Source of the DNA: an uncultured Coriobacteriaceae bacterium
Lineage (GTDB): Bacteria; Actinomycetota; Coriobacteriia; Coriobacteriales; Coriobacteriaceae
Assembly: GCA_944319885.1 (NCBI GenBank)
Contig: CALUFC010000012.1
Span: 1 to 62,210 of the forward strand
Reading direction: 5' to 3'
Length of the DNA stretch: 62,210 nucleotides
The notes below the pieces were generated by a model, which saw only the letters and a program-made list of their open reading frames with translations, was not told the origin of the DNA and made no database searches. Positions 740-13,116 of the stretch are shown here, piece after piece. The stretch's first letter is position 1. Every line of letters starts with the position of its first letter. The translations under genes and the position numbers were made by a program.

Positions 740-781
740 GCTTTTTCTGTCACGAGCCCCTTTTCTGCCCGGGCCCGATAC

Positions 782-2467
782 CTAGCTCGGGCGGAAATAC
801 TCGTCGCCTCGGTGGTCCGTTTGGATCCTGCCGACCTCCTGGCCGTCTTTGGTGACGATCTTGTCGCTGCTCAACGGCGCATCGCGCACGCGGTATTCGT
901 TGTCCCCCATGCGCACGCTGGTGCTGCCGTCAAAACGATCGCGCACGGTACCAACTGCTGCGCCATGGCGATCGCGAAGTTTCGTGGGGCCAAAGATGCC
1001 GGAGTCATCAACCTCGAGCAGCTTGTTGCCGTAGCGATCGGTGATGGTCTGCCGCTGCGGGTCACGCGAGAAGCCGCCGCCAAAGGAGCTCCCGCCTCCG
1101 CCACCGCCGCCGGCACCCGCTCCCGCGCCGCCACCGCCGCCATCGCCCGAGGCAATCAGCACGATCACTACGAGCGCAACACAGATTCCTACGATTACCA
1201 GCACAACAGTTATCACGAGGTTCACAAGGTAACCCCAGATATTCGGTGTAGCTTGACTCGCTTCCAAGATGTTCCCCAGCGTGGTGATCATCACTGGGAA
1301 GAGACCGGTTAGGGCGATGCGGCGAACAAGTTCTACCAGCAGCGCAAGAAACGCCGCGACAATGGCGAGCGTAAAGAGCCCGTTGAGAAATCCGTGGGTG
1401 CGCCCGGCGGATTCACGCCAGAGCGCTTTGCCTGTCGAGATGAGCCAGAGCAGCGCAAAGCCAAGCAGCGGAGCCGCTGCGGTTGCCGGGAAACAGGCCG
1501 TCCATATGAACGCGAACAATGAGGGCTGGGTGTATTGCGCGGGGTTGGTGAGCGTGAAGCACGATGCGAGAAACTGAACCGCGAGCCATGCCACCGCGGC
1601 GGTGAAGACAATCTTGAACACCGTGCGCAGCAGTTCGAGGGACGGCTTGGCGGCGTGTTCCGCGCGGCGGTTGCGCTCGCGCTGCACATCGAACCAAAGG
1701 ATAACGCGACGCCGTATGGTGAACAGCACGAACCCATAGAGGAAGACCTGGAGCATGCCCGCAGCCCCCAGCTGGCTTACCAACGGCTCGATACCTTGCC
1801 ACCACGTGCCCTCGAACCAAATGGGAACCGACGGGTCGATCGAGCGCAGCCACAGCATCGTCGATGATATTGCCATAAGGGTTGTGAGGAGGTAGGCAAT
1901 GAGGCGAGCTCCGCGCCGCAGGACATCGAGCCACCAGGTGGCTTCGGTTGGCTCGAGGCGCGCGACGGCGCGTTTGGCGGCGCCGGAACAGAGCCGGGCC
2001 GCTGCGATGGCTACCACGGCGACCGGCACACCCGAGGAGAGGAAGGGCTGCACGGATGCATCCATGAAGGTGCTCCATGTTTGCCCTGGCTGGAGGATGC
2101 CGTTGGCGCGCGCCGAGAGATACGCCCAGAACGCAAAGAACGCCATGAAGACAACGACGAGCGTGAGCGCCAACGCGATGCGCATGGCCCATACGAGGAC
2201 CTTGGCCATGCCCTTGTCGTCGTTCGCATTGCGAAATGTGGAATAGTACCAAAAGCCCAGCAGCCAAAAACCGATGCCCACCGCAACGCCGATACCGTTG
2301 CTTTCCTCACGGAAATTGGTCCATGAGAGCGGGGCTTGCGAGATGATGAACCATGCGATGGCCACCGGGATGCCAAAGCATACGATCGCGGAGATGATGA
2401 GCGATTGCGGCTTGAAAGCGAACAGGCGAAGGCGGCCCGCCTCGCTTGCTTGGCTTGGTGTCGTCAT
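782..2467 (-). CDS. Multi-spanning membrane protein with glycine-rich linker and soluble tail, unknown function
   Basis: 561 residues, starting at an ATG with a strong AAAGGAGG site. About nine or ten hydrophobic segments fill residues 20-435. A run made almost only of Gly and Ala (roughly 440-465) then leads to a hydrophilic tail of about 95 residues. The tail holds short related units (TDRYGNKLLEVDD, LRDRHGAAVGTVRDR, TKDGQEVGRI) that look like repeated small beta hairpins. I do not recognise the family. It lies 52 bp downstream of another membrane protein gene on the same strand, and an MscS channel gene is upstream, so the three may be cotranscribed. The soluble tail probably faces the cytoplasm or cell wall, which cannot be decided from the sequence. 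Confidence 0.7.
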   Translation of the reverse strand: MTTPSQASEAGRLRLFAFKPQSLIISAIVCFGIPVAIAWFIISQAPLSWTNFREESNGIGVAVGIGFWLLGFWYYSTFRNANDDKGMAKVLVWAMRIALALTLVVVFMAFFAFWAYLSARANGILQPGQTWSTFMDASVQPFLSSGVPVAVVAIAAARLCSGAAKRAVARLEPTEATWWLDVLRRGARLIAYLLTTLMAISSTMLWLRSIDPSVPIWFEGTWWQGIEPLVSQLGAAGMLQVFLYGFVLFTIRRRVILWFDVQRERNRRAEHAAKPSLELLRTVFKIVFTAAVAWLAVQFLASCFTLTNPAQYTQPSLFAFIWTACFPATAAAPLLGFALLWLISTGKALWRESAGRTHGFLNGLFTLAIVAAFLALLVELVRRIALTGLFPVMITTLGNILEASQATPNIWGYLVNLVITVVLVIVGICVALVVIVLIASGDGGGGGAGAGAGGGGGGGSSFGGGFSRDPQRQTITDRYGNKLLEVDDSGIFGPTKLRDRHGAAVGTVRDRFDGSTSVRMGDNEYRVRDAPLSSDKIVTKDGQEVGRIQTDHRGDEYFRPS

Positions 2468-2519
2468 AGGCGCCTCCTTTGGTACATGCGAGAGCGCGGA
2501 GTGGGTTTGCGTCCGCGTC

Positions 2520-3230
2520 CTATCCCATGAGCGAGCCGTTATAGTGAATGATCAAGGCAACCATTGCGATAAGGCACACGACGAAGAGAGCGACGCAGAG
2601 CGCTAAGAGCACCTTTGCCCAACGCGCTCCGCGATACGTGGCGATGCCGCCTCCCGCCACCACGCCGATGAACACGGCAATGCCGAGCCCGATCATGCTC
2701 AGCCCCTCGCCCAGCGCGAGCGATGGCAGGTCTGCGGCGGCGACGTTGGCGTAGTGGTAGCCATGGAGCAAGCTCACATCGCCTGTGGCGATCATGTAGG
2801 CGCCGGGCCCGATGCCGGTAAGCGAGAGCGCCGCGCCCAAGATGGAGCAGACAGCCATGGTGGCGCGCGGGCTCATGCCACCGAACAGACCGCCTTTCCC
2901 TGTGTCGTCGGGCCCAAACGAGATAAGGCTGCCGTTATAGTGGATGATCGCGGCGAGTGTCACGACAACGCTCGCGACGAGGATAACGATGCCGGCAATC
3001 GACGTCCAGTCGGGGAGGACTGTCGGCACGAGCAAAATGCAGCCCACACCGCAGCCAACAAGCGCCGCGCCGGTAATGCGTGCGAGCTTGGGTTGGTTTG
3101 CGGGCGGTGTGGTGGCGTAGTGGTAGCTGTGGAGCAGGCGTACGTCGCCTGTAATGATTTGGTAGATGCCGAACCCGGCAATGATCAGGCAGACGATGGC
3201 AGTGATGATGACGCCGGCGAACTCGTCCAT
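2520..3230 (-). CDS. Membrane protein with an internally duplicated DUF3784-like unit
   Basis: 236 residues from the ATG at 3230, which has AAGGGGG eight bases upstream. A GTG at 3251 would add seven residues but lacks a good site. The protein has two homologous halves. Each holds a motif of the type TGDV-LLH-YHYA, then a membrane segment with GxGxG-like spacing, and ends with IIHYNGSL (near residues 105 and 230). This looks like a tandem repeat of the small DUF3784-like membrane domain, giving about six membrane segments. Function is unknown. It lies between the MscS gene (87 bp upstream) and the 561-residue membrane protein (52 bp downstream). Confidence 0.7.
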   Translation of the reverse strand: MDEFAGVIITAIVCLIIAGFGIYQIITGDVRLLHSYHYATTPPANQPKLARITGAALVGCGVGCILLVPTVLPDWTSIAGIVILVASVVVTLAAIIHYNGSLISFGPDDTGKGGLFGGMSPRATMAVCSILGAALSLTGIGPGAYMIATGDVSLLHGYHYANVAAADLPSLALGEGLSMIGLGIAVFIGVVAGGGIATYRGARWAKVLLALCVALFVVCLIAMVALIIHYNGSLMG

Positions 3231-3317
3231 GGCGACAGCCCCCTTCGACACCTCATGGTGCGTTGCTGCGAGTATGCTCCTTCACGCCGCGCGAAGCAAG
3301 AGGGGGAACCCCGGCGC

Positions 3318-4118
3318 TCATCCAAGGTCGCGGGAGATGGCGCGTACGACGGCGTCGGCCGCCAACGCTGTTTTGGTGGCGTCTTCAACTTGGAAGATGA
3401 CCTTGCCCTTCACGCCGAACTCGGTGATCTCGGAAAGAAAGACGCGCGGGCCGTCGACGATGGGCGAGACGGTGCCGGCGGACTCCCGGGCGTGCGCGAT
3501 GATCGAATCGGCGAGCGCATCGATAGGGTCGGCAGCCGGTGCCCATTCGCTCACGGCACCGAGCGCTTCGTCGAGGTGATGCCGTGGGATGGCGAACGGC
3601 ACCGCCACGCGATTTGCAGGCAGCAGGTGCACGAGCGCCGTGGTCGAGATGATGGAGTTGGGAATGATGACCGTCTGGCCGAGCGCATCGCGGATGGTGG
3701 TATGGCGCCAGCTCACGTCTTGCACCACGCCGGTCTCGCTGCCCACCTCGATGTTGTCGCCGGGCTTCACGATGCCCATGAACGTAACCTGCAGCCCGCC
3801 GATGAGGTTGGCGAGCGTGTCCTGAAAGCCGAGCGACACGGCGATGCCGCCGACGCCGAGCGCGGCGATGATCGAGCTCGTGTTCACGTTGAAGATGGTG
3901 TCGAGGATGACGCTGGCCCCCATGATCCAGATGATCGCGCGCACGATGTTGACGATGATCGACGAGGTGGGCAGCGGGTTCGAATCCTGATGAAGCAGGC
4001 GCGACACGCCGCGCGCTGCGAGCTTGGCGGCGAGGAGCGTGGCTGCACCGAGCACCATGGTCCAGAATGCTTTGTGGAGCCAGGGGTTGCCGAGTATGTC
4101 GTGTGCGAGATCGAGCAT
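3318..4118 (-). CDS. Mechanosensitive channel of the MscS family
   Basis: 266 residues. The ATG at 4118 follows GGAGG by five bases and is preferred to an upstream in-frame ATG at 4136, which has no ribosome site. The layout is that of a small MscS: N-terminal membrane helices, then the pore helix region with the Gly/Ala-rich stretch GGIAVSLGFQDTLANLIGG, the beta domain (PGDNIEVGSETGVVQDV, then TTIRDALGQTVIIPNS) and a C-terminal alpha/beta domain. MscS channels open under membrane tension and release solutes on osmotic downshock. It is divergent from the lipoprotein operon that starts at 4351 and heads a possible three-gene membrane protein unit. Confidence 0.88.
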   Translation of the reverse strand: MLDLAHDILGNPWLHKAFWTMVLGAATLLAAKLAARGVSRLLHQDSNPLPTSSIIVNIVRAIIWIMGASVILDTIFNVNTSSIIAALGVGGIAVSLGFQDTLANLIGGLQVTFMGIVKPGDNIEVGSETGVVQDVSWRHTTIRDALGQTVIIPNSIISTTALVHLLPANRVAVPFAIPRHHLDEALGAVSEWAPAADPIDALADSIIAHARESAGTVSPIVDGPRVFLSEITEFGVKGKVIFQVEDATKTALAADAVVRAISRDLG

Positions 4119-4350
4119 GACCGCCTCCGTTTTCATGGCTGTCGGGTACCGTTATTATCTCCCAAGTGCCGGGGGATATGCTTTCTGGCGCCGCAGCAGA
4201 CGGCCGCGCCGCGCCACGCGGGCCGTTTGGCAGGCAAGCTCCCTCGCGGCGACTGCCTGCGGCCAACCTTACGGAGCCCTAACATTGGCTTGCTAGAATG
4301 GCGGCAATGTCGATGCCCCGCATCGTCGGGGCCAGATGACGGAGGCTGCC

Positions 4351-6078
4351 ATGAAGCGCTATCTTGCCCGCCTGCTCGCATGCCTGAGTGCCTGCTGCCT
4401 TGTTGCGATGCTTGTCGCGGGTTGCTCAGGCGGCGTGCCTGCTGGAGGCGGCAGCAAGGGCGGCGACGCCTCTGAGGGCGAGGCGGCTCAGGTCTCCACC
4501 GATGATTCCGGTACGGTTCAGACATTCAGCCCGGCAGACGGCGACGCCTCCTATACGCTCAAGATCGCATCGGGCTCCGAGAACAAGGAGGCCGCGCGCG
4601 CGATCGAGTATGCCGTAAACGCATCGGACGTTGCGGTCGAGATCCACTACATGGGCTCGCTCGACATTCGCTCGCTGCTCGAGCGCGGCGGTGATGACTA
4701 CGATGCTGTGTGGCCCGCCTCCTCCATGTGGATCACACTGGGAGACACGGGTCACATCGTGCGCAACGCGCAGTCCACGTCCACCACGCCCGTGGTGTTT
4801 GGCATCGCCCGGTCCAAGGCCGAGGAGCTCGGCTGGGTCGATGCATCGGGCGCTACCGCATCGCCTGCCACCACCGAGATTCTCGAGGCAGTCGAGCGCG
4901 GCGACCTCACGTTTGCCATGACCTCGGCCACGCAGTCAAACAGCGGTGCGAGCGCTTACCTTGCCTTCCTCACGGCGCTGGCGGGCAAAGACGGTCCCCT
5001 CACGGCAGATGACTTGGCGAACACGCAGCTTACCGACCGCGTCGCGGCGCTGCTCGCAGGCGTTGATCGCTCGTCGGGCTCATCGGATTGGCTCAAGGAG
5101 ATGGTCGTTGCCGATCCTGCGGCGCATCCAGCGATGGTGAATTACGAATCGCTTGTCTCGCAGGCGAACCGCGAGCTCGAGGAAGCGGGCGAGGAGCCCT
5201 TGGTTGCCGTCTATCCGGCGGATGGCATCGCCGTCTCCGATAGCCCGCTGGGTTTTGTCGACCGAGGCCAGGGGTCCGATGCCGAGGACGCGTTTTTGGC
5301 ATTCCAGGGCGCGCTCGCCGATAACGAGGCCACGCTCGAGCTCGAGCGCGTGGGCCGCCGCTGCGGCCTGGGCGGCAAGCTGCTCCATGCCGACGATGCC
5401 GAGGTCCAGGCGGCCTTCTCTGCCGACTGGGGCATCGTGCCCGATGCGAACGTGCTCAAGTCTATCCCGCTCCCCGAGGGCGACGTGATCTCGCAGGCGC
5501 TCGTCCTCTATCAGACGGCGCTCAAGAAGCCGTCTTATACCATCTGGGTGGTCGATTACTCGGGCTCGATGTATGGCGAGGGCAAGGACGGCGTGGTCGA
5601 CGGTCTCAACCAGGCGCTCGACCCCGAACTCGCCGCCGCGTCGCTCATCCAACCCACGGAAAGCGACATCAACGTGCTCATACCGTTTTCTGATGAGCCC
5701 CAAGAGCCCATTGAGGCCACGGGATCCGATACCAAGGATTTGCTCTACGCGGCAAAGCGGCACGACGCCGATGGCGGCACCGACATGTACGCCGCTCTCG
5801 CAGAGGCGCTGCGCCTGGCAAAGAGCGCCACTGCAGACGGCGGCTATACCGTGGCGATCGCGCTCATGACCGACGGTCAGTCTGAGACGGACAACCAGGA
5901 GGCCTTCTTTCGCGCCTACGACGCGGTGGGCATCGACGTGCCGGTGTTCTCCATTATGTTCGGCGAGGCGGATCCCACGCAGCTCGACGAGCTCTCCCAG
6001 CGCACCAACGGGCGCACCTTCGATGGCCGCGAAGGCGATCTTGCTGCGGTGTTTCGCCAGGTCAAGGGCTATAACTAG
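4351..6078 (+). CDS. Lipoprotein with substrate-binding-like domain and C-terminal von Willebrand A domain
   Basis: 575 residues. The ATG at 4351 has GGAGG five bases upstream. An export signal ends in a lipobox (MLVAGCSG), so the mature protein should be anchored outside the membrane. Residues about 60-350 resemble a periplasmic-binding-type fold. The C-terminal 190 residues form a vWA domain with an intact metal site: DYSGSM, the Thr of GGTDMYAAL and the Asp of ALMTDGQSE. The binding half shares wording with the protein at 6720-7811 (SNSG near the middle, then MVxYES). No ABC permease or ATPase gene is next to it. It is the first of four closely spaced genes ending in a TelA homologue, so it may sense or present a ligand, or organise an envelope complex, rather than feed a transporter. 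Confidence 0.8.
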   Translation: MKRYLARLLACLSACCLVAMLVAGCSGGVPAGGGSKGGDASEGEAAQVSTDDSGTVQTFSPADGDASYTLKIASGSENKEAARAIEYAVNASDVAVEIHYMGSLDIRSLLERGGDDYDAVWPASSMWITLGDTGHIVRNAQSTSTTPVVFGIARSKAEELGWVDASGATASPATTEILEAVERGDLTFAMTSATQSNSGASAYLAFLTALAGKDGPLTADDLANTQLTDRVAALLAGVDRSSGSSDWLKEMVVADPAAHPAMVNYESLVSQANRELEEAGEEPLVAVYPADGIAVSDSPLGFVDRGQGSDAEDAFLAFQGALADNEATLELERVGRRCGLGGKLLHADDAEVQAAFSADWGIVPDANVLKSIPLPEGDVISQALVLYQTALKKPSYTIWVVDYSGSMYGEGKDGVVDGLNQALDPELAAASLIQPTESDINVLIPFSDEPQEPIEATGSDTKDLLYAAKRHDADGGTDMYAALAEALRLAKSATADGGYTVAIALMTDGQSETDNQEAFFRAYDAVGIDVPVFSIMFGEADPTQLDELSQRTNGRTFDGREGDLAAVFRQVKGYN

Positions 6079-6093
6079 GGAGCGCGCGCGTCG

Positions 6094-6723
6094 ATGGGGT
6101 ACGTGATAGGAGCAATCGCGGGCGTTGCGGCGGGCGTTATATGCGTCGTCTTCGTGGGCGGCGTGGCGGGTATCGCGGCGGGGCTTATCGCAGCGGCGCT
6201 GCTCTATCTGGGGCTGGGCGCACTGCTCAAACCCGAACGCCGGCTGGGCGGCGTGATCGCGAGCAGCTTGCCCGACGGCGAGGCGGCTGCGACGCGCATC
6301 GATGCGGCGCATGAGCTGATGCGCGGCATCCAACATCGCCGTGCCAAGATGCGCGACGCAGCGGTTGCACGCGAGGCGGACGATCTGGTGCAGGACATCG
6401 GGAGGCTCGTTGCTTACGTCGAGGGTCAGCCGGCAGCCTATCGATGCCTGGCGCACGTCCTGTCGACCTACGCCGAGCAGTGCACGCAGATGCTCGACGG
6501 GTACCTGAGCGTCGAGCGCTCCGGCGTGCCCGAGATGATGCAGCAAGGGCGAGAGGACGCGATCGAGGCGCTCTGCGCGCTGCAGGGTGCGGTGCAGGGC
6601 GAGCTCGCGCGGGCAACCGGCGCCAAGGCCTCGCAGCTTGAGGCAAGCTCCGAGGCGATCCAGCGTCTGATCGAGATGGACGGGCACAAGCCCGATGCCC
6701 CTGCGGAAGGGAATACGCGATGA
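6094..6723 (+). CDS. XpaC-like membrane protein
   Basis: 209 residues. Two N-terminal hydrophobic helices (residues 3-45) are followed by an entirely helical, charged domain. Size, layout and position directly before a TelA module fit the XpaC family (named after 5-bromo-4-chloroindolyl phosphate hydrolysis; real function unknown), which is often found in front of telA in Firmicutes. It begins 15 bp after the vWA lipoprotein and overlaps the start of the next gene by four bases, which implies coupled translation. The family call is from architecture and neighbours, because there are no catalytic motifs to check. Confidence 0.6.
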   Translation: MGYVIGAIAGVAAGVICVVFVGGVAGIAAGLIAAALLYLGLGALLKPERRLGGVIASSLPDGEAAATRIDAAHELMRGIQHRRAKMRDAAVAREADDLVQDIGRLVAYVEGQPAAYRCLAHVLSTYAEQCTQMLDGYLSVERSGVPEMMQQGREDAIEALCALQGAVQGELARATGAKASQLEASSEAIQRLIEMDGHKPDAPAEGNTR

Positions 6724-7811
6724 AGTTGTCGAGAGCGAAGATCATCGGCCTTGTATGCGTGCTCGCAGCCGTTGCCGTGGTGGGCGGGGTGTTCGCCTTC
6801 CAGGCGGCGCAGCCCGAGCCGCCTGCGCCGGTTGCGCTAACCGAGGTGAACGGGTATCTCGGCGGCGAGAAGATCTCGCTGTTCGAAGACGGGGAATTCA
6901 CGAAGCTCGCCGAACAGGCGGGGCTCGATATCTCCTATCGCAAGGCTGGTTCGCTGGCCATGATGGAGGCGTCCACCGAGGGTATGAACTACCTGTTCCC
7001 CTCGTCGCAGGCGGCGGTGGAATACGGCCATGAGCTGGGTGTGGCGTCGACAAGCGAGCAGATCGTGCTCAACTCGCCCATAGTCATCTACACCTACCGC
7101 AGCGTTGCCGATGCGCTCGTGGGCTCGGGCATCATGGCGAAGGACGGCGACGTGTACACGATGAACGTCGACGCCGCGGTGCAGGCGATGCTTGCCGACA
7201 AGACGTGGGCGGACCTCGGTTACACCGCAGGCTACGGGCAGTTCCGCATCGATAGCACCGATCCGGCAGCGTCGAACTCGGGCAACGAATGGGCGGCGCT
7301 TATTGCCAACTCGCTCGCCGGCGGGCGCCCGGCGACGGTTGAGACCATCGAGCGCGACGCCGACGCCATTCGGGCCATCTTCTCCAAATCAGGTTGGATG
7401 GAGACGAGCTCGGAGGATTCGTTCAGCCAGTTCCTCACGCTCGGTGAAGGATCAAAGCCCATGATGGTGGGCTACGAGAGTCAGGTGCTCGACCTTGCGG
7501 TGAACGAGCCAGACCTCTACGAGCAGGTGAAAGACGATCTTGTGGTGGCGTACACCACGCCCACGGTGTGGTCGACGCATGTGCTCATGGCGCTCGACGA
7601 GAACGGCGAGCGCCTCTCGGAGTTCCTCATGAGCGACGAGGTGCAACAGCTCGCGTGGGAGCGCCATGGGTTCCGCGGTGCAAGTCAGCTGGGCACCGAC
7701 AGCGCGAGCCGTTTTGGCGTGACCGGAATCGCGGAGCGGGTGCCAGCGGCGGTGGAGCTGCCCGCGCCCGATGCCATGCAGCGGCTCATCGAGATTGTGA
7801 GCGGGGCGTAA
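6720..7811 (+). CDS. Membrane-anchored solute-binding-like protein
   Basis: 363 residues, overlapping the preceding gene by ATGA. One N-terminal hydrophobic helix (about residues 8-28, ending FAFQAAQ) has no lipobox Cys, so it is a signal anchor or a signal peptide. The rest resembles a binding-protein fold: an N-terminal lobe, a central SNSGNEWAALI segment, and a conserved MVGYESQVLDL segment. These parallel SNSGASAYLAFL and MVNYESLV in the vWA lipoprotein at 4351-6078, so the two look like paralogues, here without the vWA domain. There is no neighbouring transporter. Ligand unknown. Confidence 0.65.
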   Translation: MKLSRAKIIGLVCVLAAVAVVGGVFAFQAAQPEPPAPVALTEVNGYLGGEKISLFEDGEFTKLAEQAGLDISYRKAGSLAMMEASTEGMNYLFPSSQAAVEYGHELGVASTSEQIVLNSPIVIYTYRSVADALVGSGIMAKDGDVYTMNVDAAVQAMLADKTWADLGYTAGYGQFRIDSTDPAASNSGNEWAALIANSLAGGRPATVETIERDADAIRAIFSKSGWMETSSEDSFSQFLTLGEGSKPMMVGYESQVLDLAVNEPDLYEQVKDDLVVAYTTPTVWSTHVLMALDENGERLSEFLMSDEVQQLAWERHGFRGASQLGTDSASRFGVTGIAERVPAAVELPAPDAMQRLIEIVSGA

Positions 7812-7915
7812 GGACGGGTTTTCTTCGCAGCGTGAGTGTCGGCGCCGCGGGTGAGTAGGTTGATGAGCGCCATGGCGCAGAGAGAAGCTTTGGCGCAGAC
7901 GGAAGGGAGCTCATG

Positions 7916-9082
7916 ATGGGCGACGAGATCAAGGTCGAGGCGACGGTCGAGCCAGCGAAGGCGCGCGTGAGCCTCTCGGATATCGCGGCTTCGCAGGGCA
8001 GGACGCTCGCCACGTCGCCGGCAGCCACGCCGGTAGCGCCGGACGAGCCGCCGGCGGTGCAGCTGAGTCCCGAGGACCAGCGGCGTGTCAACGAGCTTGC
8101 GCGCTCGATCGATTTCATGAAGGGCGGCATCGAGAGCAGCTACGCGCGCGACGCCCAGCGCTCTATGACCGATTTTGCCGACACCGTGCTCGCTAAGACC
8201 GCCAACAAGTCTGCCGGCGAGGCGGGAGAGCTGCTGCGCGAGCTGCTCGCCAACGTTGAGGACGCCGAGCTCTCGGGTATCAAGCAGGTGCCCATCATTG
8301 GCAAGGTGGTGGTGAGCATCGACAAGCTTCGCCGCACGTACCAGAAGGTTGCTCCTCAGGTGGACGAGATCGTCGAGAAGCTTGAGCGCGCGCAGGCGCA
8401 GATGGTGGCGGACATCGCCATGTTCGACACGATGTACACCCGCAACGTCGAGCAGTACCGTACGCTCAAGATCTCTGTCGCCGCGGGCCGGCAGGCGCTC
8501 GCGGCCTTCCGCGCCGAGCAGCTTCCGGGCCTCGAGGCCGAGGCGCGAGAATCGGGCGACGCGATGGATGCGCAGGTGCTCAAGGACTTCAAAGACAAGC
8601 TCGAGCGCTTTGACAAGCGTCTCGACGACCTTGATCGCGTGAGCGTGGTGGCGCTGCAGATGGCACCCCAGATCAAGCTGATTCAGAATGCCGATAAGAG
8701 CATTTCGGATAAGATCGACACCACCATCTCGACCACCATTCCGCTGTGGAAGTCGCAGATGGTCATTGCGCTGGGGCTCTCGAACCAACGCGCCGCCCTC
8801 GATTTGCAGCGGAGCGTCGATGACACGACGAACAAGCTGCTGCGCGCCAACGCCGAGGCACTCGAGCAGGGCGCCGTGGACGCCGAGCGCGCCAACCAGC
8901 GCGGTTCGGTGGACATCGAGACCCTTGAGGAGGTCAACCAGCGTCTCATTAGCACGCTCAAGCAGACGGTCCAGATCCAGCAGGAAGGGCGCGCGGCACG
9001 CGTCGAGGCCGAAAACCGCATGCGCAAGATCGAGGGCGATCTCAAGACAGCGCTGCTGGAGAATGCACAGGCGCTCTCGTAG
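7916..9082 (+). CDS. TelA/KlaA family toxic anion resistance protein
   Basis: 388 residues. ATG codons at 7913 and 7916 both follow GGGAG, and the second has the better spacing. The protein is soluble and almost wholly helical, with the family's typical stretches (SGIKQVPIIGKVVVSIDKL, then the segment around IPLWKSQMVIALG and a final helix-rich tail). TelA proteins are linked to tellurite and cell-envelope stress tolerance, but no biochemical activity is established. It closes the binding-protein/vWA/XpaC unit after a 104 bp gap. The order XpaC then TelA is a recurrent pairing, which supports both calls. Confidence 0.85.
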   Translation: MGDEIKVEATVEPAKARVSLSDIAASQGRTLATSPAATPVAPDEPPAVQLSPEDQRRVNELARSIDFMKGGIESSYARDAQRSMTDFADTVLAKTANKSAGEAGELLRELLANVEDAELSGIKQVPIIGKVVVSIDKLRRTYQKVAPQVDEIVEKLERAQAQMVADIAMFDTMYTRNVEQYRTLKISVAAGRQALAAFRAEQLPGLEAEARESGDAMDAQVLKDFKDKLERFDKRLDDLDRVSVVALQMAPQIKLIQNADKSISDKIDTTISTTIPLWKSQMVIALGLSNQRAALDLQRSVDDTTNKLLRANAEALEQGAVDAERANQRGSVDIETLEEVNQRLISTLKQTVQIQQEGRAARVEAENRMRKIEGDLKTALLENAQALS

Positions 9083-9282
9083 GGCCTGTTCGCTGCCGTA
9101 TTGCCGTCTGCCGGGATGCCTTCGCGCCGGAAGCCTGTGCCAGCGGGAAGCATGCGCGCGGGCACGCGTCTTGCTACCATGAAGGTGGAAGATGGCGCGA
9201 TTGGGCCCCGTCGGAGCAACCACCCAGAGCAGCTGGTGCGTTGTAAGGCGGGCTCCGCTCAGGGGCATGAAAGGGCGCAGCG

Positions 9283-11847
9283 ATGGCTTTGAACAACGAT
9301 CGGCGTGGATCCGCAGGGTCTGCTGGTGTCGCACCGGCGTCACGGCGCACGGCGGCACCTACGTGCATCCAGGTGCGCGGTGCTCGCGTGCACAACCTCA
9401 AGAACGTCGACGTAGACATTCCGCTCGGGTGTCTTGTGGGTATTGCGGGCGTTTCGGGCTCGGGCAAGAGCTCGCTTGCGCTTGGTACCCTCTACGCCGA
9501 GGGTAGCCGCCGTTATCTAGATGCGCTCTCCACCTACACGCGCCGTCGTATTGGGCAGGTGTCGCGCGCCACGGTCGATGAGGTGCTGCATGTTCCCGCC
9601 GCCCTCGCGCTGCGCCAGCGCCCCGGCGTGCCGAGCGTCCATTCCACGTTTGGCACCTCAACCGAGCTGCTCAACTACCTCAGGCTCATATTCTCGCGCC
9701 TGGGCAGCCACCAGTGCCCGGAGTGCGGCGCGCACCTGCCGCCTTCCATGGACGTGGCTATGGGGCTCAAGTCGCGCTGCCCCGCATGCGGCGCCGAGTT
9801 CTATGCCCCCGGCGCCGAGGACCTCGCCTTCAACAGCGCGGGCGCCTGCCCCACGTGCGGCGGCACCGGTGTCGTGCGTACGGTCGACGAGTCCACGCTC
9901 GTGCCCGACGAGTCGATCTCGATTGAAGATGGCGCGGTGGCCTCATGGAATCAGCTCATGTGGAAGCTCATGGTGCAGATTGCTCGCGAGATGGGCGTGC
10001 GCACCGACGTGCCGTTTTGCGAGCTCACGCCCGCCGAGCGCGAGATCGTGTTCCGCGCGCCCGCCGAGAAGCGCCACATCATCTACCAGAGCCCCAAGAC
10101 CGGCGACGTGGCCGAGATGGACTTCACCTATTACAACGCGGTTTACACCGTAGAGAATGCGCTTTCCAAGGTGAAGGATGAGAAGGGCCTTGCACGCGTG
10201 GCGAAATTCTTGAAGGAGGAGACCTGCCCCGATTGCCAGGGGACGCGCCTGTCGGCGCGCGCCCGCGGGCCGGTGATCGACGGGATGAACCTCGGCGATG
10301 CGACACGCATGACGCTCGATGAGCTTGCGGCGTGGGCTCCCTCTGTGCCCGCGCTTATGCCCGACGAGATGCGATCCATGGCGCAAACGATCGTTTCCGG
10401 GATGGCAGAGCCCATGGAGCGTTTGCAGCAGCTTGGCCTGGGTTACCTTTCGCTCGACCGCGCGAGCTCGACGCTCTCCACCGGCGAGCGCCAGCGCGTG
10501 CAGCTTGCCCGCGCCGTGCGCAACCGCACCTGCGGGGTGATGTATGTGCTCGATGAGCCTTCGATTGGGTTGCACCCTTCGAACGTCGAGGGGCTCCTTG
10601 GTGTCGTGGGAGATCTCATCGCCGATGGCAACTCCGTGGTGCTCGTCGACCACGACGTGCGGGTGTTGCGCCATGCCGACCACCTCATCGAGATCGGGCC
10701 TGGTTCGGGCACGGCGGGCGGCGAGGTCATCGCCCAGGGCACGGTCGCTGTGGTCGAGGCGTCGCCGGCAACGCGCATCGGGCCGTTTCTCGCGGGCACA
10801 CGGCGCATTCGCGCGCGCGAGCGCGCTCTGCCCGAAGCGATGTTCGACGAAGGCGCCATTCATCTTGCAACCGACGGCATCCACACGGTGCGTCCGCTCG
10901 AGGTTGATATTCCACGCGGCAGGCTCACCGCCGTTACGGGCGTCTCGGGTTCGGGCAAGACAACGCTCGTGCTCGAAAGCTTGATTCCCGCGCTCAAAGC
11001 TTCGATAGCGGGCGAGCGGCTGCCGGTGCACGTGCGTTCGATCGAAGCGTCGGGCGTGCGCCGCGCGAACCTCATCGACGCGACGCCCATCGGGGCAAAT
11101 GTGCGCTCTACGGTCGCCACCTACTCTGGCGTACTCGACGATCTGCGCCGCGCGTTTGCCAAGTTGCCCGAGGCGCGCGAGCGCGGCCTCAAGGCAGGGG
11201 CGTTCTCGTATAACACTGGCTCGCTCAGGTGTCCTACCTGCGATGGCACAGGCCAGATCTCGCTCGATGTGCAGTTTCTGCCCGATGTCGATATTCCGTG
11301 CCCTGCCTGCAACGGCGCACGGTACAGTCGGGATGCCTACGGCATCAAGCTCGCGGGCGACCTGAGCTTGCCCGAGCTGCTCTCCTATACCGTCGACCAA
11401 GCGCGCGAGGTGCTTGCCGATACCGGCCTGCGCCCGGCGCTTGGCAAGCTGCGCACCCTCTCCGAACTGGGCTTGGGGTATCTCACCTTGGGCGAGGCAA
11501 CGCCGGTGCTCTCGGGTGGCGAGGCGCAGCGTCTCAAGCTCGCAAGCGAGCTCACGCGCAACCAGAACGACGCGCTGTTTGTGTTCGACGAGCCTACGAT
11601 CGGCTTGCATCCGCTCGATGTGGAGGTGCTGCTTACGGTGCTGCAGCGGCTTATCGACAACGGAGCGACGGTGGTGGTGATCGAGCATGATCTCGATATG
11701 ATCGCGAACGCAGATTGGGTGGTTGACATGGGGCCGGGCGGTGGAGACGCCGGTGGCCGCGTGGTTGCGACGGGCACACCCGAGCACATCGCCGCTTGCC
11801 CCGAGAGCATTACCGGCCGCTATATCGCCGAGGAGCTCGGCACGTAG
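9283..11847 (+). CDS. UvrA-family ATPase of the UvrA2 type (no UvrB-binding domain)
   Basis: 854 residues, against about 940-970 for UvrA proper. Two ABC modules are complete: Walker A GVSGSGKSS and GVSGSGKTT, signatures LSTGERQRVQLA and LSGGEAQRLKLA, and Walker B VLDEPSIGLHP and VFDEPTIGLHP. Zinc-type Cys pairs are CPECG, CPACG, CPTCGGTG, CPDCQGTR, CPTCDGTG and CPACNGAR. Between the first Walker A and the CPTCGGTG motif the UvrB-binding insertion of canonical UvrA is absent. Such shorter paralogues occur beside a true UvrA and are linked to DNA damage or drug tolerance. No uvrB or uvrC is nearby. The ATG follows AAAGGG. Confidence 0.85.
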   Translation: MALNNDRRGSAGSAGVAPASRRTAAPTCIQVRGARVHNLKNVDVDIPLGCLVGIAGVSGSGKSSLALGTLYAEGSRRYLDALSTYTRRRIGQVSRATVDEVLHVPAALALRQRPGVPSVHSTFGTSTELLNYLRLIFSRLGSHQCPECGAHLPPSMDVAMGLKSRCPACGAEFYAPGAEDLAFNSAGACPTCGGTGVVRTVDESTLVPDESISIEDGAVASWNQLMWKLMVQIAREMGVRTDVPFCELTPAEREIVFRAPAEKRHIIYQSPKTGDVAEMDFTYYNAVYTVENALSKVKDEKGLARVAKFLKEETCPDCQGTRLSARARGPVIDGMNLGDATRMTLDELAAWAPSVPALMPDEMRSMAQTIVSGMAEPMERLQQLGLGYLSLDRASSTLSTGERQRVQLARAVRNRTCGVMYVLDEPSIGLHPSNVEGLLGVVGDLIADGNSVVLVDHDVRVLRHADHLIEIGPGSGTAGGEVIAQGTVAVVEASPATRIGPFLAGTRRIRARERALPEAMFDEGAIHLATDGIHTVRPLEVDIPRGRLTAVTGVSGSGKTTLVLESLIPALKASIAGERLPVHVRSIEASGVRRANLIDATPIGANVRSTVATYSGVLDDLRRAFAKLPEARERGLKAGAFSYNTGSLRCPTCDGTGQISLDVQFLPDVDIPCPACNGARYSRDAYGIKLAGDLSLPELLSYTVDQAREVLADTGLRPALGKLRTLSELGLGYLTLGEATPVLSGGEAQRLKLASELTRNQNDALFVFDEPTIGLHPLDVEVLLTVLQRLIDNGATVVVIEHDLDMIANADWVVDMGPGGGDAGGRVVATGTPEHIAACPESITGRYIAEELGT

Positions 11848-12042
11848 CGCGTGGGCCAGCGCAGCCTGGGGCGCGATATGCGCGCCATTCCTCTCGAGCT
11901 CCTCGGCCGCGACATCGCCTTGTTGGATAGTCCATACGCTGTTGTTAGATTTCGCGTACTGGCTGCTAGAAGTTCGTGAGACGACGTTTCGGTTTTTTCA
12001 TGCGGGCCCTTGCCAGTGTTTACCAGCGCGTATCGTAGAGAT

Positions 12043-13116
12043 ATGGATACCACGCTGTGCGACATATCTGCCTTTCAGTACTATCGTATTCCGCCCTGTC
12101 TCCTGCGACGCATGGTCGAGGAAATCGACCTGTCGACGAAGGGCGGACGCAAGAAGCTGGCGGACGCCAATTCGTTCCTGGGGTATATAGAGACGCCACT
12201 TCATGTGCTCGAGACCGATCGCGCGCGTCGCTTTACCGCGCGGGGCATGGTCAAACATCTGTGGAGCGGCGAGCTGCCGCTCGGCGCAAAGCGCGAGATC
12301 GACGTCTACCATTATGTGACCTCGCCTGCGATGACATTGCTGATGCTTGCGCGCCACTTGGATAAGACGTGCCTTACGATGGCGATTTACGAGATGGTGG
12401 GTACCTTCTCCGTAATCAGGATGCTGCCCGGGGATCGTGCGTATGTTCAGCAGTGCATCGACGCGGGGCAGGTTGCGTTCGAGGGCGGCTGGGAGCCGGC
12501 GCGTGACAAAAATGGCAGGCTCGCAGGCGATTTGTGGGAGCGTCCTGCCTTGCTCACGCTGGATGAGCTGTGGGCGTTTATCCACGAGATGAAAGGCGTT
12601 CGCGGCTGCAAAGCGCTTGCTAGCGCCGCGCGCGAGGTGGTGGGTTCGGCGGCGTCGCCGTTTGAGGCACGTGCCGCGATGCGAATCTGCGGGAGCAGAT
12701 CGAGCGGAGGCGAGGGAATCGGGAGGGCGGAGCTCAACACGGTCATTCGCTTCACATCTGCTGCGGCTTCGATTGCCGGGCACGACTACGCTATCGCGGA
12801 TATGCTCCTACGCGCCCACGACGGCGCGGCTGAGCTGGTGATTGAGTGTCAGGGTAGGTCGTCTCATGGGGCGGGCGGTGTCTCAATTGCAGACGCCGAT
12901 CGTCAGCTTGCGCTGCAGCGTATGGGGTACGAGGTCATTTTGCTCACGCACGAACAGATCGAAGACGAGTGGCGATTCCGTCAACTGGCGCGTTACCTGG
13001 CGGAGCGGCTCAACGGCTGCTACACAGAGAAAAACTCGTGGGAAATGGAGCGGCAGCGCGAAATGATGCGCGTTCTGTTTAGCAATTGGGCCGATTTGTT
13101 GTGTGGAGCGCGGTGA
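12043..13116 (+). CDS. Hypothetical protein with a DUF559/Vsr-like nuclease-type C-terminus
   Basis: 357 residues from the ATG at 12043; a TTG at 12010 would extend it by 11. The last 100 residues contain LVIECQGRSSHGAG, a spacer with ADRQLALQRMGYEVILLTHEQI, and a final helix. This resembles the core of DUF559/Vsr-like nuclease folds, where an acidic-x-(D/Q)-G strand, a His pair and DRxRxxxLxxxGW usually occur. The usual EYDG is here ECQG, so activity is uncertain. The N-terminal part (residues 1-200, with FQYYRIPP and RRFTARGM) recalls AbiEi-like proteins of actinobacteria but has no firm match from memory. It stands alone, and a terminator and a palindrome follow it. Confidence 0.6.
   Translation: MDTTLCDISAFQYYRIPPCLLRRMVEEIDLSTKGGRKKLADANSFLGYIETPLHVLETDRARRFTARGMVKHLWSGELPLGAKREIDVYHYVTSPAMTLLMLARHLDKTCLTMAIYEMVGTFSVIRMLPGDRAYVQQCIDAGQVAFEGGWEPARDKNGRLAGDLWERPALLTLDELWAFIHEMKGVRGCKALASAAREVVGSAASPFEARAAMRICGSRSSGGEGIGRAELNTVIRFTSAAASIAGHDYAIADMLLRAHDGAAELVIECQGRSSHGAGGVSIADADRQLALQRMGYEVILLTHEQIEDEWRFRQLARYLAERLNGCYTEKNSWEMERQREMMRVLFSNWADLLCGAR

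Follow-up and report, generated by a model that had tools for sequence, protein, structure and literature searches.

The 62,210-nucleotide stretch of DNA considered here (the window), from an uncultured Coriobacteriaceae bacterium, carries a cassette of four genes at positions 4351-9082. These genes, named A, B, C and D and all located on the plus strand, encode two proteins with binding-protein-like domains, a small membrane protein distantly resembling XpaC, and TelA:

4351..6078, plus strand: gene A, predicted lipoprotein with an SBP_bac_11 domain and a C-terminal von Willebrand factor A (vWA) domain (Pfam, alignment, model)
about 4564-5304: SBP_bac_11 (ModA/sulphate-binding type) domain of A
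about 5545-6015: vWA domain of A
6094..6723, plus strand: gene B, N-terminal hydrophobic stretch, KPERR motif and helical domain; distantly XpaC/Halogen_Hydrol-like (Pfam, profiles)
6720..7811, plus strand: gene C, SBP_bac_11 protein, predicted to be membrane-anchored and without a lipobox (Pfam, model, profiles)
7913..9082, plus strand: gene D, TelA (PF05816) (Pfam)

An additional in-frame ATG is found upstream of gene A at 4336. A preliminary description of this locus had reported four genes on one strand separated by 15, -4 and 104 bp, which was confirmed, except that the last gap measures 101 bp from the first ATG of D and 104 bp only if D begins at its second ATG (7916). As also claimed there, no ATP-binding cassette (ABC) permease or ATPase gene is present among A-D. 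Family scans (Pfam and NCBIfam) covered eight window genes at 782-11847. Scans for promoters (one site versus 0.8 expected) and terminator-like sites (two versus 2.6 expected) were uninformative.

The four genes are a real and movable unit that is repeatedly conserved in gut and soil bacteria, and of which TelA is a usual but not universal member. A scan of a genome collection with an alignment of C retrieved 75 loci, counting the partial or contig-end loci L123 (C only), L097 and L106, the last two being halves of apparently one Collinsella cassette. The set is conserved, as 42 of these loci have all four genes on the same strand in the order A-B-C-D (33 from Bifidobacterium and nine from Coriobacteriia), and the 4-bp overlap between B and C is exact in 33 of the 43 loci that have both genes. 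The order C-A-x-D, where x is a slot for a membrane protein sized like B, was found at 18 loci. The Anaerococcus locus (L103) seemed to lack B by BLAST, yet an XpaC gene occupies its position. Lone C genes make up 11 loci, all from Bifidobacterium (L087, L089, L091-L095, L098, L099, L101 and L105); several of them belong to species with a full cassette, and four (L091, L092, L093 and L098) lie near cassette genes on the opposite strand. Altogether, the distribution covers Actinomycetota (Coriobacteriia, Bifidobacterium and Actinomycetes) plus one genome of Bacillota (Anaerococcus).

At the genome level, C was detected in 25 of 296 Coriobacteriia genomes, and a phylum-wide set of 296 genomes contained 10 with C. 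Full-length A is encoded by 24 of 292 sampled Coriobacteriia genomes (85 match A at an expectation value, E, of 0.001, those without full-length A mostly by their vWA part only), and 90 genomes of this sample have TelA above its curated cut-off. Within the family of Coriobacteriia labelled f1, the sampled TelA-bearing genomes (above cut-off) and those bearing full-length A are the same eight. Of 197 genomes from the class around genome G427, 29 contain the binding domain of A, with strong matches in about 20. We took 20 strong places, omitting weak rows, a split match in G696 and places that had already been retrieved. Here C adjoins A in every case, 10 places have TelA inserted between the two and 15 have B after A, the arrangements being C-D-A-B or C-A-B. 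Polyphosphate-kinase-looking genes were seen by eye near two of these Actinomycetes cassettes (L199:3775-5937 and L209:2091-2879), which may be due to chance. Further loci were classified as C-D-A-B (L142, L143 and L145), C-A (L144) or C only (L140 and L141). The last two hold C-like frames with a long N-terminal extension (L140:7526-9007 and L141:7480-9036), and none of A, B or D was detected nearby. The three gene orders found thus point to C and A as the constant core. TelA does not belong to this core because it is absent from 10 of the 20 Actinomycetes loci, so that, contrary to the preliminary description, TelA counts as an optional member of the unit. Across the 42 A-B-C-D loci, the pairwise distances of A-D correlate at 0.87-0.93, as is expected of genes that travel together.

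Comparison with the sister genome G003 delimited the block in which the cassette resides:

3318-4136: MscS gene, upstream flank
4098..9366, no strand: block holding the cassette between the conserved MscS and UvrA-like flanks (comparison with G003)
9283-11847: UvrA-like ABC-type ATPase gene, downstream flank

Measured between the last aligned bases, the distance from MscS to the UvrA-like gene is about 337 bp in G003 versus 5270 bp in the window. This empty site indicates that the four genes were gained or lost as one block, and it places the UvrA-like ATPase outside the unit. Both flanking genes were considered as cassette members and rejected, since G003 has them without the cassette. No sign of an agent of cassette movement was found, repeats and transposases not having been searched systematically. 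An 18-kb contig of G014 (L031, G014:C28) is 98.8% identical to window positions 781-13108 over 12.3 kb, although G014 is assigned to another genus and possesses a second, native MscS/UvrA-like locus. This copy likely reflects contamination or very recent transfer and is not to be taken as independent. G014 is one of the eight f1 genomes (a doubtful one), and the 42 A-B-C-D loci include L051, the named copy of its locus. As for the UvrA-like protein, that of the window (854 aa) scores 710.2 bits, slightly below the NCBIfam uvrA cut-off of 729.8; relatives have this protein in addition to a longer UvrA-like one (~39% identical), and the copy on the G014 contig contains an in-frame TAG.

The first domain of A and protein C are, by their sequences, true paralogues. 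Direct BLASTP of the window's A against C was not significant (E 0.098), but profile comparison joined them at 98.1% (E 1.2e-13, 234 columns), rising to 99.0% (E 5e-18, 260 columns) with Actinomycetes members added. Two elements are invariant in both alignments, SNS within the SNSG motif and YES within NYES/GYES, which bears out the shared binding-protein-like core proposed in the preliminary description. Specifically, the first half of A, with the vWA removed, matches SBP_bac_11 at E 5.8e-11 (43 bits) and C matches it at E 2.6e-6 (27.8 bits), both exceeding the curated Pfam cut-off of 25; nine of 18 A-domain members are recognised by this family at E 0.01. Searches of PDB sequences yielded no relative, only one chance-level row (E 0.78), and profiles of A and C gave nothing significant against the single E. 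coli ModA and Sbp sequences, while A matched a ModA profile at 93% (E 3e-7). Structure prediction agreed that A and C are related binding folds. In the models, both confident (mean predicted local distance difference test scores of 87.0 for A and 88.1 for C), the binding domain of A is closest to the sulphate-binding proteins 5um2 (Z 25.9, 288 aligned, 3.6 A) and 1sbp (Z 25.6), and the best solved neighbour of C is again 5um2 (Z 23.6, 274 aligned, 3.1 A); thiamin-, ferric-, polyamine- and molybdate-binding proteins rank closely after these. Both domains are therefore predicted to adopt the two-lobed type II binding-protein fold of the sulphate/molybdate type, a fold that does not by itself identify the ligand. 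The two proteins are also predicted to face outward, A through a lipobox cysteine and C through an N-terminal helix. Cys25 of A (4423-4425) is invariant in 18 of 18 A proteins and nearly so in a 22-member alignment, where the exception (L067) has its start clipped by the gene call, whereas in C residues 5-29 form a membrane helix and there is no lipobox. The description of both as extracellular lipoproteins therefore applies to A and not to C.

Given that both folds are canonical for SBP_bac_11 and lie near those of sulphate, ferric and molybdate binders, A and C could be orphan solute-binding proteins that pass a nutrient anion to a distant ABC permease, with TelA and B as bystanders or regulators of uptake. 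ABC transporters encoded away from their binding protein are not without precedent. However, no cognate permease or ATPase was found in the conserved set in any of the arrangements, a linked pair of paralogues of which one is vWA-fused and the other membrane-fixed is unlike binding proteins that deliver a substrate, and TelA follows the cassette within family f1. We consider this explanation improbable.

The C-terminal part of A matches VWA_3 in Pfam (E 7.3e-11, residues 399-555), and the corresponding part of the model matches 4fx5 (Z 22.5). Residues D402, S404, S406, T477 and D508, which we take to make up together the vWA metal site (the metal ion-dependent adhesion site, MIDAS), are invariant in two alignments (18 of 18 and 22 of 22 A proteins). 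The site had been described as intact from the window alone, and the alignments uphold this; the vWA domain is predicted to carry it outside the cell, on the lipoprotein. Since vWA domains with intact metal sites are often mediators of adhesion, and many of the carrier genera are gut-associated, the cassette might instead encode a device for surface adhesion or envelope assembly, in which a host or cell-wall partner docks on the metal site while the binding domains play a structural part and are not ligand-gated. On the other hand, the core is also present in Actinomycetes whose large genomes make them probable Streptomyces-like soil bacteria, and adhesion leaves the linkage to TelA and B unexplained. 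Of the alternatives that we weighed, this is the most improbable.

Protein B opens with a hydrophobic stretch (residues 1-47), interpreted as a hairpin. After it come KPERR and a helical domain, which by the positive-inside rule would be cytosolic. The earlier label of XpaC-like is only partly borne out, in that the window's B matches Halogen_Hydrol/XpaC (PF10112) marginally (E 2e-4, 21.8 bits versus a curated cut-off of 29.8) but its Anaerococcus relative does so clearly (E 3.5e-18, 66.7 bits). Variants of B could not be joined by profile when only two or three sequences were used; with 11 sequences from Actinomycetes, the window's B matched theirs at 61%, versus 2.2% for a reversed control. 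A second B-like gene is present in the Olsenella locus L057, at 9246-9767 between C and D.

Protein D is the sole TelA match in the source genome and covers almost the whole of PF05816 (residues 61-382, profile positions 3-331 of 332, E 2.4e-90, 303 bits). No hydrophobic segment was found in it. Seven Coriobacteriia genomes without the cassette have a vWA match within about 2 kb of TelA, which shows that the TelA-vWA tie is wider than the cassette. These genomes (G045, G055, G090, G230, G248, G257 and G304) perhaps hold other TelA-vWA systems. In Ter systems, according to PMC7824862, TelA and the vWA protein TerF form sub-membrane structures proposed to block the entry of phages and xenobiotics. 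The cassette could accordingly be imagined as a Ter-type stress or conflict branch, with TelA and vWA as the sub-membrane barrier, while recognition on the outside would fall to A and C. Its patchy distribution together with the empty site, the cassette-less TelA loci near vWA matches, and the PP2C-like and kinase-like genes that adjoin one C-D-A-B cassette (L145:2428-4409, read by eye) would fit this idea. However, TerC, TerD and TerB domains were not found among the eight window genes scanned, none of the four cassette proteins had a PADLOC match to known anti-phage systems, and the vWA of the cassette is predicted to be extracellular. This explanation, too, appears improbable.

The reading that we prefer, to which we assign a probability of roughly 45%, is that A, B, C and D make up one envelope complex, that is, a surface receptor without an ABC transporter that is coupled to TelA. 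In its favour are the conserved arrangements, the empty site of G003, the joint occurrence of TelA and full-length A in f1, the correlated distances, the predicted surface location, the fold matches and the TelA-vWA tie beyond the cassette. We regard as somewhat unlikely the broader proposition that A and C (with B) represent a kind of surface receptor that has not been characterised before and works without a transporter. Of its two paralogous binding-protein domains, one is fused to a predicted extracellular vWA domain that would grip a metal and one is tethered in the membrane; they would sense an outside ligand and drive the assembly of TelA under the membrane, or act on some other effector at loci that lack TelA. 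Such a receptor would use the binding-protein fold for signalling without a kinase, chemoreceptor or ABC permease. A role in envelope sensing is suggested by the TelA/XpaC regulons of other bacteria. The respective papers place xpaC-yaaN in the core sigma-W regulon of B. subtilis (PMC3498285), name lmo1966-1967 of Listeria as LiaRS-regulated (PMC12791056 and PMC11765107, citing Collins 2010), and list an xpaC-like gene and telA1 as raised in a response of Lactococcus in a CesSR paper (PMC3139573). PMC12791056 further cites a 4-fold sensitivity to nisin and a 2-fold sensitivity to tellurite for the lmo1967 mutant, and describes the function of TelA in Listeria as not well established.

Under the preferred reading, A and C would bind a small ligand arriving at the envelope, with an anion as the first guess from the fold; alternatively, they may recognise a perturbed component of the envelope. 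Depending on ligand or metal, the vWA metal site would let A take hold of an acidic residue on C or on some other surface partner, and the resulting state could be relayed inward through the C helix and the B hairpin. TelA would then assemble, or be released, beneath the membrane and reinforce or re-model it, the outcome being tolerance to envelope-acting antimicrobials or toxic oxyanions.

Several observations weigh against this reading. Half of the Actinomycetes loci (10 of 20) are without a nearby TelA, and C and A must act there without it. The correlated distances of A-D are partly accounted for by host ancestry. The envelope-stress role is borrowed from TelA/XpaC of other bacteria, in operons whose listings omit A and C. 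The match of C to the ModA profile is weak (19%), and two A-ModA alignments are shifted by one residue at Ser12 of ModA, so that the ligand-site residues are not fixable. Finally, type-2 B' (the x of C-A-x-D) has no detectable relation to B by profile (0.5%), and B is not provably a single family across all cassette variants.

In the open literature, with the 2012 review of Ter systems by Anantharaman, Iyer and Aravind not covered, we found no publication on the A-B-C-D unit. The conserved operon offers TelA candidate inputs, namely two outward-facing binding proteins, and thereby makes the question of its action testable, by way of a ligand for either binding protein and the response of TelA to it. 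If the preferred reading is true, it would be a case of binding proteins operating without a transporter.

None of PspA, PspC and LiaF, as expected of a PSP/LiaFSR operon, was found among the eight window genes scanned; nor was the MoxR AAA+ ATPase that would partner a MoxR-vWA chaperone, and the chaperone-like role also floated in the preliminary description is without positive support. The XpaC-TelA pairs (xpaC-yaaN of B. subtilis, lmo1966-1967 of Listeria and llmg_1115-1116 of Lactococcus) resemble the cassette in having TelA beside a small XpaC-type protein. However, the passages on these pairs list no binding or vWA protein alongside, and the B of the cassette is only borderline for the XpaC family. 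Ter and other TelA-vWA systems share the link between TelA and a vWA protein, from which the cassette differs by a predicted exported vWA fused to a binding domain and by a neighbourhood free of TerB, TerC and TerD among the scanned genes. The architecture of A itself has a counterpart in PMC13293324, which tabulates VWA as a domain co-occurring with SBP_bac_11, an entry that comes there without operon or function. With the ModA/sulphate-type SBP_bac_11 proteins, the first domain of A and C share the family and the predicted fold, but in the cassette they come without permease and ATPase, A being fused to a vWA domain and C predicted to be anchored in the membrane.

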